From positions 62,001 to 126,000 of the forward strand of contig JASJAN010000005.1 in assembly GCA_030066985.1 (NCBI GenBank): a stretch of DNA of 64,000 nt, written 5' to 3'. Made by a program: the position numbers and the translations under genes. The notes below the pieces were generated by a model. The model did no database searches and was not told the origin of the DNA. It saw only the letters and a program-made list of their open reading frames with translations. The first letter of the stretch is position 1. Each line of letters begins with the position of its first letter. Shown piece after piece: positions 20,570 through 63,309 of this stretch. The stretch is from Desulfobacterales bacterium (GTDB lineage Bacteria > Desulfobacterota > Desulfobacteria > Desulfobacterales > JAHEIW01).

Positions 20570-20927
20570 AACCACCACTGAGAATCGTAAACGGCTGTTA
20601 TCGGTCAGAGCTGTCTAAAATAACCCATCTTTAACATTTTGCCGAAAATCATTCAATTGCTCGAACCGGGCTCATCCTAAAAACAGAACAACCGTCAAAA
20701 TGGTAAATGGATATCCGAGTTAAATGGACAGATACGCTGGCAAGGCTAAATGTGGCAGATTAGAAATTAAAAGAAAAAAAGTAAAAACATACCATGACTT
20801 GTCGTTTTGGGGCCTGACGTGCATGTTAGAGACGCTGAACTGTTGTTTTCCGGCTTCACGTGACAGTGAATATTTCCGCTCTATTAGCGAGCAATAGATA
20901 TGTTAAACGGGTTTCAAAATAAATAGA
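20570..20927. other. Intergenic region without recognised feature
   Basis: About 360 bp upstream of the Nudix gene. A/T-rich, with only short unconvincing open frames. I see no clear promoter, RNA or repeat here; the long inverted repeat begins at 20928. Confidence 0.5.
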
Positions 20928-21076
20928 TTATTTCCGTTTTGAAAGCGAGGAATTTTTTGCAAGGTCAAGGAAAAAAGTGGGATTGAGCGGTGGCGTACTA
21001 TGAGTACGTCGCACAATTCAATCCCGCTGTTTGACGCAGAGATTGCGGAAAAGGGCCGCTTACAAAACGGAAATTA
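20928..21076 (-). repeat. Long near-palindrome at the gdhA stop codon (copy A)
   Basis: 149 bp. Outer arms 20928-20941 and 21063-21076 match at 13 of 14 positions (core TTTCCGTTTTG / CAAAACGGAAA); the right arm includes the gdhA stop TAA (21074-21076). Inner arms GGGATTGA / TCAATCCC flank a centre GCGTACT-atg-AGTACG. Size and layout match the copies at 36870 and 61507, although the outer sequence differs. Confidence 0.8.
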
Positions 21077-22423
21077 GATGAGGCCTTGATCCAGCATGGC
21101 CTCCACAACCTTCACAAAACCTGCAATATTGGCACCGTCGACGTAATTGCCCGGCGTTCCGTATTGTTCGGCGGCTGCCAGACAGGTGTTGTGGATATTT
21201 TTCATGATGATTTGGAGACGCTGGTCCACCTCTTCAGCCTGCCAGTTGAGCCGCATGCTGTTTTGAACCAATTCCAGACCGGATACTGCCACGCCACCGG
21301 CATTAGCTGCTTTTCCGGAAGCAAAAAGGACGTTGCGGTCCTGGAATATAGTGACGGCTTCAGGTGTGCAGGGCATGCTGGCCCCCTCACAGATGAGCTT
21401 AATGTTGTTGTTGATCAGGTTATAGGCATCCTTGTCGCTAATTTCATTTTGAGTGGCACATGGAAATGCGCAAACGGCCCGGTGACTCCAGAGCGGATTA
21501 TAATCTAAGGTGTAATCGGTATCCGTGTAAACGGCGGAAGGATATTTTTCGACGTAATCCTTAATCCGGCCCCGTCGGATATTTTTAAGATACTTGACAT
21601 AATTGAGTTTATTGCGATCAATGCCTTCAGCATCATAAATATAGCCGGTGGAATCCGATAGCGTGACCACCTTAGCGCCCAATTCCAAGAGCTTTTCAGC
21701 CGTGTGTTGCGCGACGTTGCCTGACCCGGATACCAGACAGGTCTGATCTTCCACTCCAATGTTGCGGGTGGCCAGCATTTCAGCGGCAAAATAAACACAC
21801 CCATAGCCGGCTGCCTGGGGGCGTATCAGACTGCCGCCCCAGCTGACGCCCTTGCCGGTCAAGGCGCCGGCAAATTCGTTGCTGAGTTTTTTAAACATCC
21901 CGAAAAGATAACCGATTTCTCTGGCACCGACACCGATGTCAGGCGCAGGTATATCAGTATTGGCTCCGATATGGTGAAATAGCTCTGTCATAAAGCTTTG
22001 GCAAAACCGCATGACCTCATTATCGGATTTGCCCTTAGGGTCAAAATCAGATCCACTAGCCGCACCACCTAACGGCAAGGTGGTTAACGCATTTTTAAAC
22101 GTCTGCTCAAAGGCCAGGAATTTCAAAATACTCTGGTTGACTGACGGATGAAATCGCAGTGCCCCTTTGTAAGGACCAATGGCGCTGCTCATCTCAATGT
22201 TAAAACCGCGGTTTACATTCACATTGCCCCGATCATCCAGCCAGGGAATTCGAAAGGTTGTGATACGCTCAGGCTCAACAATTCTTTCCAAAACAGCTTC
22301 CTGCCGATATTGAGAGTTCTGATCCAAAACCGGTTTGACGCTTTCAATGACTTCCTGCACAGCCTGAAGAAATTCGTTTTCATGTAGATCCCTGGTTTTG
22401 ATGATTCTAATGATGTCTGTCAT
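21074..22423 (-). CDS. gdhA: NADP-type glutamate dehydrogenase
   Basis: Interconverts glutamate and 2-oxoglutarate plus ammonium; main route of ammonium assimilation when ammonium is plentiful. 449 residues, the length of the hexameric E. coli-type enzyme. Substrate-binding region GPYKGALRFHPSVNQSILKF, catalytic Lys in GGAASGSDFDPKGKSD, and NAD(P) Rossmann motif SGSGNVAQHTAEKL. GGAGG lies 4 nt before ATG 22423. Its stop codon is the first base triplet of the long palindrome at 20928-21076. Confidence 0.96.
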   Translation of the reverse strand: MTDIIRIIKTRDLHENEFLQAVQEVIESVKPVLDQNSQYRQEAVLERIVEPERITTFRIPWLDDRGNVNVNRGFNIEMSSAIGPYKGALRFHPSVNQSILKFLAFEQTFKNALTTLPLGGAASGSDFDPKGKSDNEVMRFCQSFMTELFHHIGANTDIPAPDIGVGAREIGYLFGMFKKLSNEFAGALTGKGVSWGGSLIRPQAAGYGCVYFAAEMLATRNIGVEDQTCLVSGSGNVAQHTAEKLLELGAKVVTLSDSTGYIYDAEGIDRNKLNYVKYLKNIRRGRIKDYVEKYPSAVYTDTDYTLDYNPLWSHRAVCAFPCATQNEISDKDAYNLINNNIKLICEGASMPCTPEAVTIFQDRNVLFASGKAANAGGVAVSGLELVQNSMRLNWQAEEVDQRLQIIMKNIHNTCLAAAEQYGTPGNYVDGANIAGFVKVVEAMLDQGLI

Positions 22424-36803: not shown

Positions 36804-36869
36804 CAGAATTAACAGATTAGAATAATGATGTATTTTCTTTTTTGAGATGAGGTGTTTGTAATAATTAAG

Positions 36870-37016
36870 TAGAATTGACTTTAAAATGTTAGATCTTGTT
36901 CGATAGCGCGACAAAATTCGATTCAAAAGTGGAGCGTACACGGTAGTACGTGAGCATTTTGAATCGAATTTTAACAAAGCTATCGGGCAAGAGATGACGG
37001 TTTAAAGCCAATTCTA
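36870..37016 (-). repeat. Long near-palindrome at the HIT-gene stop codon (copy B)
   Basis: 147 bp. Outer arms 36870-36885 and 37001-37016 match at 15 of 16 positions (TAGAATTG.CTTTAAA); the right arm includes the stop TAG (37014-37016). Middle arms CGATAGC/GCTATCG, inner perfect 16-bp arms AAAATTCGATTCAAAA/TTTTGAATCGAATTTT, and a centre GCGTACACGGTAGTACGTGAGC. The centre is shared almost base for base with copy C at 61507. Confidence 0.88.
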
Positions 37017-37343
37017 ACGCCAGCCGCCTATGAGGTGTAGGTGAAGGTGAAAAATCACCTGCCCCCCTCCCTTTTCAACATTGTACAATAGCTTGTATCC
37101 GGACTTTGAAACACCGTGTTCCTTGGCCATATCCCGAGCCACCATTATCAGCTCTGAGAGAATTTCATGATTGTCGCCGGTCAGATCATTAATGCTTCTA
37201 ATATGCTTTTTGGGCACAAACAGCAGATGCACCGGCGCATGGGGATTAATGTCTTTGAACACCACCAATGTGTCGGTTTCGTGTAATATTTCCGTATCGG
37301 TCTGACCGTGGGCGATGCGGCAAAAAATACAGTCCTTTTCCAT
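37014..37343 (-). CDS. HIT family protein (HinT-like)
   Basis: 109-residue nucleotide-binding hydrolase of the histidine-triad superfamily, HinT branch (nucleoside phosphoramidate hydrolysis). N-terminal CIFCRIAHGQTDTEILHET, substrate loop NPHAPVHLLFVPKKHI, and the active triad HLHLHLIGG near the C-terminus. AGGAGG precedes ATG 37343. Its stop codon is the end of the long palindrome, and it lies between hemW and aat, all on the minus strand. Confidence 0.95.
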   Translation of the reverse strand: MEKDCIFCRIAHGQTDTEILHETDTLVVFKDINPHAPVHLLFVPKKHIRSINDLTGDNHEILSELIMVARDMAKEHGVSKSGYKLLYNVEKGGGQVIFHLHLHLIGGWR

Positions 37344-45041: not shown

Positions 45042-45126
45042 TATTGGCAACCTGGCAGTCTTAGCCGCTTGGCTTTAGACCCATGGTTTTGCGCCGCCAT
45101 CTTTCGGTGACTTTGCCCTTTCAATA
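45042..45126 (-). ncRNA. GEMM (cyclic di-GMP-I class) riboswitch aptamer
   Basis: Minus-strand RNA with the conserved GEMM landmarks in order: AGGGCAAA, a hairpin capped by GAAA (CACC-GAAA-GATGG), GGCGCAAAACCATGGGTCT, a second hairpin GCC-AAGC-GGC, then CTGCCAGGTTGCC. P1 is TATTG/CAATA (ends 45122-45126 and 45042-45046). Known GEMM RNAs bind c-di-GMP or, with altered specificity residue, 3',3'-cGAMP; which ligand applies here is not decided. Promoter directly upstream, terminator directly downstream. Confidence 0.88.
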
Positions 45127-45146
45127 AACAAAATTGTCCTAAAAAC

Positions 45147-51454: not shown

Positions 51455-51460
51455 TCTGCA

Positions 51461-51616
51461 GGTTTCAGGTGTCAGTGTTCAGGTGTCAGAAGACAGAAGC
51501 AAGACAACAAAAGTCAGACGATAAATACGAATGATGGATGGATCAACATATCTGTCTTCTGTTTTCTGCCTTCAGTCCTCTTTTTGCTGACACCTGACAC
51601 CTGAACACTGACACCT
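51461..51616. repeat. CAGGTGTCAG inverted repeat between fmdB-like gene and degP
   Basis: Left end GGTTTCAGGTGTCAGTGTTC AGGTGTCAG (51461-51489), right end its inverse (CTGACACC TGACACCTGAAC ACTGACACC, to 51616). Inner arms AAGACAGAAG / TCTTCTGT. About 155 bp between convergent genes. A shorter relative is at 57441-57502. Confidence 0.8.
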
Positions 51617-51678
51617 AAAAATTTGACCCCTCCAAGCCCGCCAACAGATACTTGGTTTAAAATTCCCGATTCCCCCGA

Positions 51679-61506: not shown

Positions 61507-61654
61507 TAAACTGAGTTCGAAATTCTCAGCTTTTGTTCGAGACCAAGGCGCAAGCCGGCTCAAAAGTGGAGCGTACACGATAGTACGTGAGCATTTTGAG
61601 CCGGCTTGTAACACAGGTATCGGGCAAAAGATGGGGATTTGGGACTCAGTTTTA
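61507..61654 (-). repeat. Long near-palindrome at the livF stop codon (copy C)
   Basis: 148 bp. Outer arms TAAACTGAGT (61507-61516) and ACTCAGTTTTA (61644-61654), which contains the livF stop TAA. Middle arms CTTTTG/CAAAAG, inner arms AAGCCGGCTCAAAA/TTTTGAGCCGGCTT (perfect), centre GCGTACACGATAGTACGTGAGC. The centre is the same as copy B save one base, while the arm sequences differ (GGCTC instead of GATTC). Confidence 0.88.
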
Positions 61655-62365
61655 GCCGCCGAGATAGGCCTTTTTTACCTCCGGATCCTCCAGCAACTGC
61701 TCTGAAGAGCCCTCCAAAACCAGATTGCCGTTTTCCAGCACGTAGCCGCGCTGCGCAAATTGCAGGGCCAGACGAGCATTTTGCTCGACCAGCAATATGG
61801 TGGTGCCCTCCTTATTAATCTCCTTGAGGGCATCAAACATGCTCATCATCAACAGCGGTGCCAAACCCATGGAGGGCTCATCCAGCAGCATGACCTTGCG
61901 ACCGCTCATATAGGCTCGACCGACCGCCAGCATTTGCTGCTCACCACCACTAAGCGTGCCGGCTTTTTGTACCTGCCGTTCATCCAGACGCGGAAAAATG
62001 GAAAAGACCCGCTCAATGTCTTTGTTGATCTGGTCATTGTCTCTGCGGGCAAAGCAGGCCAGTTTTAAATTTTCCATCACCGTTAAATTATCGAACAGAC
62101 GCCGCCCCTCGGGGACATGCGAAATACCCAGTTGGCTGACCACTTTATCGGCAGCGTAATCAAGCAAGTCCTTTCCCTGAAAGGTCATACGGGAACCCTC
62201 ATCAGCAGGAACCATGCGCGAAATGGCTTTAAGTGTGGTGCTTTTACCGGCACCATTGGCGCCAATAATACAAACAATTTCGCCTTCTTCAATTTCAAAA
62301 TTCAGCCCGTGCAGGGCTTTAATATTGCCATAGGAAACGCGCAACCCTTCAATGGATAACAACAT
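61652..62365 (-). CDS. livF: Branched-chain amino acid ABC transporter ATPase LivF
   Basis: 237 residues. Walker A GANGAGKSTTLKAI, signature LSGGEQQMLAVGRAYM, Walker B VMLLDEPSMGLAP and the H-loop LVEQNARLAL, the last two characteristic of LivF. Start overlaps the livG stop by one base (TAATG). Energises uptake of Leu, Ile, Val or related substrates together with LivG, LivM and the missing LivH/LivJ. Confidence 0.95.
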   Translation of the reverse strand: MLLSIEGLRVSYGNIKALHGLNFEIEEGEIVCIIGANGAGKSTTLKAISRMVPADEGSRMTFQGKDLLDYAADKVVSQLGISHVPEGRRLFDNLTVMENLKLACFARRDNDQINKDIERVFSIFPRLDERQVQKAGTLSGGEQQMLAVGRAYMSGRKVMLLDEPSMGLAPLLMMSMFDALKEINKEGTTILLVEQNARLALQFAQRGYVLENGNLVLEGSSEQLLEDPEVKKAYLGG

Positions 62366-63152: not shown

Positions 63153-63309
63153 CCCCATTGGTTAAAACCCAATGGGGAGTTATTCGTTATTTGTTATTCG
63201 TTAATCGTCTGTGAGGAATAAAACCAAAAATCCATTCCATCAATATCAAGACCCAATAACAAATAACCAATGACAAATAACGCCTGATTGAGTGTTTGGC
63301 TCAATTAGG
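63153..63309. repeat. Hairpin-GTTATT inverted element between livM and livG
   Basis: Hairpin CCCCATTGG..CCAATGGGG (63153-63177), array GTTATTCGTTATTTGTTATTCG (from 63179), spacer, inverted array CAATAACAAATAACCAATGA (to about 63282), then a hairpin TTGAGT..CTCAA (63284-63309) ending at the livM stop. Equivalent parts occur at 31473-31572 and 46181-46317. Confidence 0.75.

Follow-up and report, generated by a model that had tools for sequence, protein, structure and literature searches.

Three long palindromes of nearly equal size lie in a 64,000-nucleotide stretch of a Desulfobacterales genome (the window), at 20928-21076, 36870-37016 and 61507-61654, and they raise the question of whether such hairpins serve the genes beside them or are copies of something that moves. 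A preliminary description, drawn up from the letters alone, had placed palindromes at these positions, where we found them, had credited the second and third with a common centre and with covarying paired arms, and had considered both a mobile hairpin and an mRNA 3' stabiliser. Its interpretation is partly supported by our analysis; the exact contact with stop codons in one orientation, the targeting of TA and the way arms are decoupled from the core escaped it because they needed comparison. We call the three copies elements A, B and C. For elements, plus denotes the strand with the preserved fold (the gene abutting B lies on the minus strand), arm limits were set by TA and the abutting stop codon, and scores are those of the covariance model R1 described below.

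20902..20922, plus strand: probable left-arm relic of a B-type element, left of A (by eye)
20930..21074, plus strand: element A, second subtype with apex GGCGTACTATGAGTACGTC; 84.6 bits, E 2.3e-17
21075..21076, no strand: TA at the right edge of A, within the TAA stop (21074-21076) of the ORF at 21074-22423 (minus)
36830..36853, plus strand: probable left-arm relic of an A-type element, left of B (by eye)
36870-36871: TA at the left edge of B, read from the sequence
36872..37014, plus strand: element B, subtype with apex GCGTACACGGTAGTACGTGAGC; 146.8 bits, E 1.8e-32
37015..37016, no strand: TA at the right edge of B, within the TAG stop (37014-37016) of the ORF at 37014-37343 (minus)
61508..61652, plus strand: element C, subtype as B; 157.9 bits, E 3.7e-35
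61653..61654, no strand: TA at the right edge of C, within the TAA stop (61652-61654) of the ORF at 61652-62365 (minus)

The product of the ORF that abuts A (21074-22423) we take to be glutamate-dehydrogenase-like. The lower R1 score of A reflects its different subtype, the apex of which is related to that of B and C, and A was also recovered by a general model, R2 (G000:C5:82946-83062; G000 is the genome of the window). The apex common to B and C, GCGTACACGNTAGTACGTGAGC, matched the window twice, compared with a mean of 0.03 matches in 100 shuffles, which bears out their common centre. A known RNA family was rejected for the elements tested, as A, B and C had no Rfam match at gathering score and two further copies (L103 and L130) had none at E≤0.5. 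An intrinsic terminator, with a short GC-rich stem and then a U-run, was rejected on direct reading: the outer stem is long and AT-rich and no T-run follows, in agreement with the earlier remark that the hairpin is too long and too free of U-runs for an ordinary terminator. Other structured sequences in the window include a c-di-GMP-I riboswitch at 45043-45127 (minus; 76.2 bits), a large imperfect inverted repeat of CAGGTGTCAG units at 51459-51620 (72-79% complementary), which stands outside the palindrome family, and an inverted repeat of GTTATTCGTTATTTGTTATT at 63179-63282; similar TTATTCGTTATTGG strings flank the element in L141.

A, B and C are members of one family of ~145-bp imperfect palindromes. 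An apex pattern allowing up to three mismatches matched 47 times in the whole of G000, compared with 10 matches for its reversed control, and R1 was built from 36 of the 47 distinct copies available at that stage (46 and A); the other 11 carried inserts, had odd left ends or lay in L035. The covariance-model search proposed in the preliminary description, where a lack of further copies was to count against a family, returned 136 matches at E≤1 in G000 (at least three of them are already listed places read on the other strand), and that objection does not apply. At E≤0.001, R1 had matches in 29 of 40 genomes, with G000 included. Hairpin shape alone scores with this model, up to 69 bits for wrong-strand readings of true copies; the best R1 match lay above 69 bits in 21 of the 28 relatives, and among the rest at least one is no member. 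Doubtful weak relatives are L074 (G036), a direct-repeat array, and L072, which is uncertain; the tandem array in L074, with a AAACGATTT..GTCGTTTT unit, was weakly picked up by the model. For the analyses below we kept 91 copies, 67 from G000 (of the 136 matches) and 24 from G001, out of 111 matches, having dropped one duplicate and 19 lower-scoring rows (read on the opposite strand, incomplete, or carrying inserts), among which are some genuine variants. The element is thus a short non-coding repeat with terminal inverted repeats and many copies, as MITEs are.

Several copies carried additional sequence. Within 60 bases either side of the apex, L007, L012, L020 and L035 of the own genome had a small hairpin, TCCGCC..GGCGGA, in place of the AACACAG loop, which looks like the insertion of a second repeat into this internal loop. 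Another repeat, CCCGC..GCGGGATTTCAC..GTGTTCAA, occupied the left part of L004, L008, L019 and L043 and of L115 in G003 (near gene end B), a further insert of ~45 nt was present in L027 and L036, and a CGAGGACGAGG-rich inverted repeat lay inside a seemingly broken element at a gene end in L191 and L206 (G003).

The consensus hairpin, ~145 nt long, has an outer stem of ~16 bp whose sequence varies, followed by a middle stem and an asymmetric internal loop in which AAGGCG faces AACRCAG. Beyond this loop come an inner stem, another internal loop with GCGGA facing GAGYA, and an apex stem of six pairs; both internal loops are conserved and unpaired. Fifty of 58 stem pairs showed changes on both sides, 92.6% of cells were paired compared with 73.6% in shuffled alignments and at most 44.3% when the alignment was slid, and a covariation score as high as the observed one was reached in 0 of 500 shuffles, confirming that the arms covary. 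Pairing was preserved unevenly between the strands. On the strand with apex GCGTACACG, stem cells of the 36 copies comprised 200 G-U and 30 A-C, and in the 91 copies, with columns of common wobbles left out, the counts were 178 and 33. This strand is antisense to the abutting gene, which argues against the suggestion that the hairpin stabilises mRNA 3' ends on the gene strand. When copies were split by gene calls, those with a neighbouring gene transcribing the folding strand had 37 G-U and 7 A-C cells (14 copies) and those without had 54 and 9 (20 copies). Since the asymmetry is the same with or without a gene transcribing that strand, the fold is preserved on one strand and host mRNA is no explanation; a single-stranded DNA or RNA intermediate of mobility would fit.

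In the genus, the element mostly occupies the TA of a stop codon, TAA or TAG, and does so in one orientation. Taking for each copy the first ORF listed with 60 codons or more, the right arm end was straddled by the stop codon of a minus-strand ORF (offset -1 or 0) in 58 of 91 copies, 57 of these stops being TAA or TAG and one TGA, and three further contacts were made through the second-listed ORF. The mirror contact on the left was found in 5 copies versus the 58 on the right, four of the five with ORFs of 69-110 codons. With ORFs of at least 90 codons, 68 copies had a stop near the right edge, and 65 of them had good arms; the right dinucleotide was TA in 63 of the 65, and TA stood on the left in strict register in 16, many others having a T before the first A, one base off. 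As a null, stop codons account for 41 of 694 usable TA sites in the window (6%), giving a binomial probability of 5e-48 with copies treated as independent. TGA ends 7 of 48 window genes but is nearly absent at the contacts, which fits a TA target, and the stop codon survives insertion because the element begins with A or G. By gene calls, 21 of 46 copies had a minus gene on either side and 15 stood in the gap of a convergent gene pair; some copies were found before start codons or away from stops. Stop contact was much weaker in other genomes (3/20 in G239, 0/10 in G054, 1/5 in G042 and 0/5 in G041, where the boundary search misplaces some ends) and is therefore a habit of this lineage. In G040, copies L385-L400, read by eye, had the same base outside TA on both sides (T..T or A..A), which suggests that the target there is longer than TA.

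Orthologous gene ends within the genus were empty, filled, or filled with the other subtype. The gene right of B has a B-type orthologue of the element in G001 and A-type elements in G002 and G003, and the gene right of A has a B-type element in G001, so that A-type and B-type elements replaced each other at two orthologous gene ends. We looked up 15 young copies in G001-G003 and obtained usable orthologous loci for 13; L138 had no usable locus and L132 only repeat fragments. One clean pair of empty and filled sites was found in the genus: L195 (G002) reads ATTTAAC-TA-ATTCTG and L130 (G000) ATTTAAC-TA-[element]-TA-ATTCTG, the empty L130 site in G002 being AACTAATTC. A second comparison came from the related E. 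coli palindrome discussed below: at the stop codon of hemE, K-12 is empty (CACCGC-TA-AGGAG) and strain 7/2 is filled (CACCGC-TA-[element]-TA-AGGAG). At these two cleanly comparable sites insertion took place at TA and left TA on both sides, which, together with the many copies, upholds the earlier proposal of a dispersed MITE-like hairpin. Neither empty site held prior arm sequence, on which grounds we rejected both arms derived from the target site and insertion into the loop of a pre-existing terminator. Some sites were filled in relatives too (L141/L190, and L146/L196 with agreeing right arms), and several young copies stood at gene ends that carry no copy in relatives; in most relatives the site has diverged too far to give a clean empty comparison, and loss in relatives is possible there. 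Carriage by viruses was rejected: the apex pattern had 0 matches in the viral_contigs collection, and the few matching records, four from a plasmid collection and one from a phage collection, were all enterobacterial.

Arms and core differed in how they were kept. In 57 non-orthologous pairs (16 copies) with cores at least 93% identical, arm identity was 0.66 by a shift-tolerant measure, falling to 0.65, 0.60 and 0.56 at core identities of 0.85-0.93, 0.75-0.85 and 0.60-0.75; these pairs are not independent of one another. Among orthologous pairs, arm identity was 0.88-0.92 in the four whose cores reached 0.93 or more and 0.62-1.00 in the six others (core 0.74-0.88). By strict columns, arms in the 57 pairs were 0.48 identical and those in the whole set of non-orthologous pairs 0.46, compared with 0.91 in the four orthologous pairs; one further orthologous pair was down to 0.42. 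The ten orthologous pairs were chosen by right flanks matching at the same offset, setting aside cross-genome pairs that share a left-flank repeat only and L113 with A (different subtype); L025/L160, probably orthologous, was counted as non-orthologous for want of flank. Orthologous copies thus mostly keep their arms, whereas similar cores elsewhere carry different, complementary arms, and the outer arms of the 16 young copies comprised 181 Watson-Crick and 5 G-U of 191 pairs. In 19 copies the edge between variable arm and uniform core was sharp, at about position 16. Slow vertical divergence of old copies of the young type was rejected, since orthologues keep arms about as well as cores and age alone accordingly has difficulty in explaining arms 0.66 identical between copies with cores of 0.93 or more.

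Considering these data together, we think it probable that the element is a non-autonomous mobile palindrome (MITE) of ~145 bp with TA insertion, stop-codon siting and a fold on one strand. During mobilisation, its antisense strand would fold as single-stranded DNA or RNA, and an enzyme presumably encoded elsewhere than in the element would read the hairpin and its two conserved internal loops, not the arm sequence, with the arms free to drift so long as pairing holds; insertion at a stop codon would be harmless to the host, and a later insertion at the same gene end may overwrite an older copy. The observations can be explained in this way, and a host function is not needed. The ends of the element are its most variable part, unlike those of plain MITEs, which keep their terminal repeats, and this counts against the reading. 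We consider it unlikely that the hairpin is instead a host-selected 3' element of the abutting gene (mRNA stabiliser, terminator or decay site), since the G-U wobbles are kept on the antisense strand, some copies lie before starts or away from stops, different subtypes take each other's place, and no copy is present at certain orthologous gene ends or at hemE of E. coli K-12; exact stop-codon contact, strong covariation and the orthologous copies kept between G000 and G001 speak for it, as does the reported orientation-dependent effect of ERIC on mRNA stability in Yersinia (PMC2229807). Nor does it seem likely that arm complementarity is kept by a DNA process such as template switching or cruciform correction rather than by selection or mobility. 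Arm-to-arm copying would give nearly perfect Watson-Crick pairing of young arms, as observed, but it predicts no strand preference, whereas G-U exceeds A-C by about 5 to 1, and the internal loops stay unpaired and conserved.

As to the mobilising enzyme, the preliminary description had pointed to a REP-type (TnpA-REP) transposase. A REP/RAYT system in which a Y1 transposase moves the hairpins gains something from Y1 (PF01797) matches in 36 of 40 relatives and three in G000, one of the latter on a contig shared with listed elements (nearest element ~19 kb away). Y1 presence does not follow copy number, however, G013 (96% complete) having 74 element matches and no Y1 match, and the element has ~145 bp rather than 20-40 bp and duplicates TA, which makes this mover very improbable. 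An IS630/Tc1-type transposase, suggested by the TA target, was rejected as well: DDE_3 (PF13358) occurred in only 2 of 15 genomes examined and was absent from G000, G001 and G002. In the two families searched, PF01797 and PF13358, no transposase could be linked to the element. Two readings of the arms remain within the mobile-palindrome explanation: the core is overwritten by conversion while the arms stay, or the arms are rewritten at insertion. For the former, in which gene conversion between dispersed copies homogenises cores and leaves locus-specific arms that merely look re-made, we see about an even chance. It accounts for L101 (G000) and L207 (G002), which share a gene end and similar arms and have different cores (by eye), for L037/L168 (arms 1.00, core 0.87) and L015/L157 (arms 0.83, core 0.75), and for the gammaproteobacterial genome G040, in which one and the same left arm, along with a nearly uniform core, recurs in 10 of the 16 copies read, so that arms are not always re-made; it is at odds with the sharp edge at about position 16 in 19 copies and with several young copies at ends where relatives show none, by which at least some arms came with recent insertions. 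The latter we put forward tentatively and with some doubt: a mobile hairpin that homes in on the TA of TAA/TAG stop codons in a fixed orientation, has both arms rewritten together at each insertion and passes on its core, each copy thereby carrying a self-complementary tag of its own. The shared arms in G040, and in G239, where arms are mostly alike (by eye), indicate that arm rewriting is not general. Should it be true, the enzyme would read structure, and targeting may be tied to translation termination or to the state of the DNA at gene ends.

Outside the genus, the apex pattern matched, among the matches listed, many Desulfobacterota assemblies and others named Gammaproteobacteria, Verrucomicrobia, Nitrospinota and Ammonifex; matches outside Desulfobacterota had different yet self-complementary arms. 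R2 gave 30, 34, 9, 4, 40 and 6 matches in six such genomes (E≤1e-4), and the reversed control of the apex pattern gave 0 in the seven genomes searched. The R2 matches were shown on several contigs in five of the six (one in G043), so that a single contaminant contig is unlikely there. In a scan of the phylum, with at most 18 candidates scored per genome, 46 of 198 genomes matched at E≤1e-8. R2 also recognised an enterobacterial palindrome, with 52.9 bits (E 4e-14) in E. coli and, in part only, 42.1 bits in Klebsiella and 28.8 bits in Salmonella. The E. coli ~150-bp intergenic palindrome (hemE, qseE, pyrH-frr, pheM-pheS), which we assume is perhaps the 'RSA' repeat of older literature, likewise has outer arms that differ between copies and still pair (by eye). 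A 151-base query matched 5,375 of 5,426 E. coli genomes at a median of 5 places, and its best match reached 99% identity or more in 287 records. When the query was taken from the qseE end, 80% or more of its length was matched in 5,375 of 5,426 genomes, and five of the six matches listed lay at qseE. The E. coli palindrome differs in its few copies and in its sites: of four places read, hemE was exact, the qseE stop lay about three bases outside the edge and two were not at a stop. A dense Desulfobacterota repeat linked with an E. coli palindrome that is polymorphic at hemE makes target choice, moving strand and enzyme testable in laboratory strains. If stop-codon targeting is real, it would be an unusually precise safe-haven strategy of a transposable element in need of a molecular explanation. 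More generally, strong covariation in bacterial intergenic hairpins can stem from a mobile element and is by itself no proof of a regulatory RNA.

Among known repeat systems, integron attC sites also keep their structure while the stem varies, fold on one strand and lie just after stop codons; the element is unlike them in that its target is a duplicated TA, and no cassette array was noticed. REP/BIME repeats with RAYT are dispersed intergenic hairpins too, described as 20-40 bp palindromes with a GTAG or CGTC tag (PMC3733652), from which the element differs in size (~145 bp), in its target, with TA at the right flank, and in lacking a transposase link. YPAL/RU-2 of Yersinia (168 bp) is likewise a long mobile palindrome for which both filled and empty sites are described; it is said to lack a terminal TA and to have duplications of 3-26 bp (PMC2229807), in contrast to the right-edge TA of the element. 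Among the papers listed by searches of the open-licence literature, we recognised none as describing this Desulfobacterota family or ERIC-like elements inserted exactly at stop codons. The closest known kind are the ERIC/IRU-type MITEs, alike in layout and motifs. ERIC (IRU, RU-1; enterobacteria and Vibrio; 127 bp) is likewise a long imperfect intergenic palindrome, described with TA at its termini and TA duplication (PMC2229807; PMC2759123), as in the Desulfobacterales element. The two share the motif order AAGGC - GGAGCNTAC - loop - GTANGTGA - AACGC with the same spacing; this composite motif, written after seeing ERIC, was present in 3 of 3 ERIC loci (two genomic places), in 0 of 60,000 shuffles of one ERIC and in 37 of 91 family members. 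With R2, ERIC scored only 7.1 bits (E 0.14), and the ERIC loci matched Rfam V_AS5 below cut-off. ERIC further differs in length (~127 bp versus ~145 bp), and the ERIC copies read have ends that are alike and a nearby stop that falls three or eight bases beyond the terminal TA instead of on it. On these grounds we class the element as a MITE that resembles ERIC in its layout and in the way it works, and not as ERIC.
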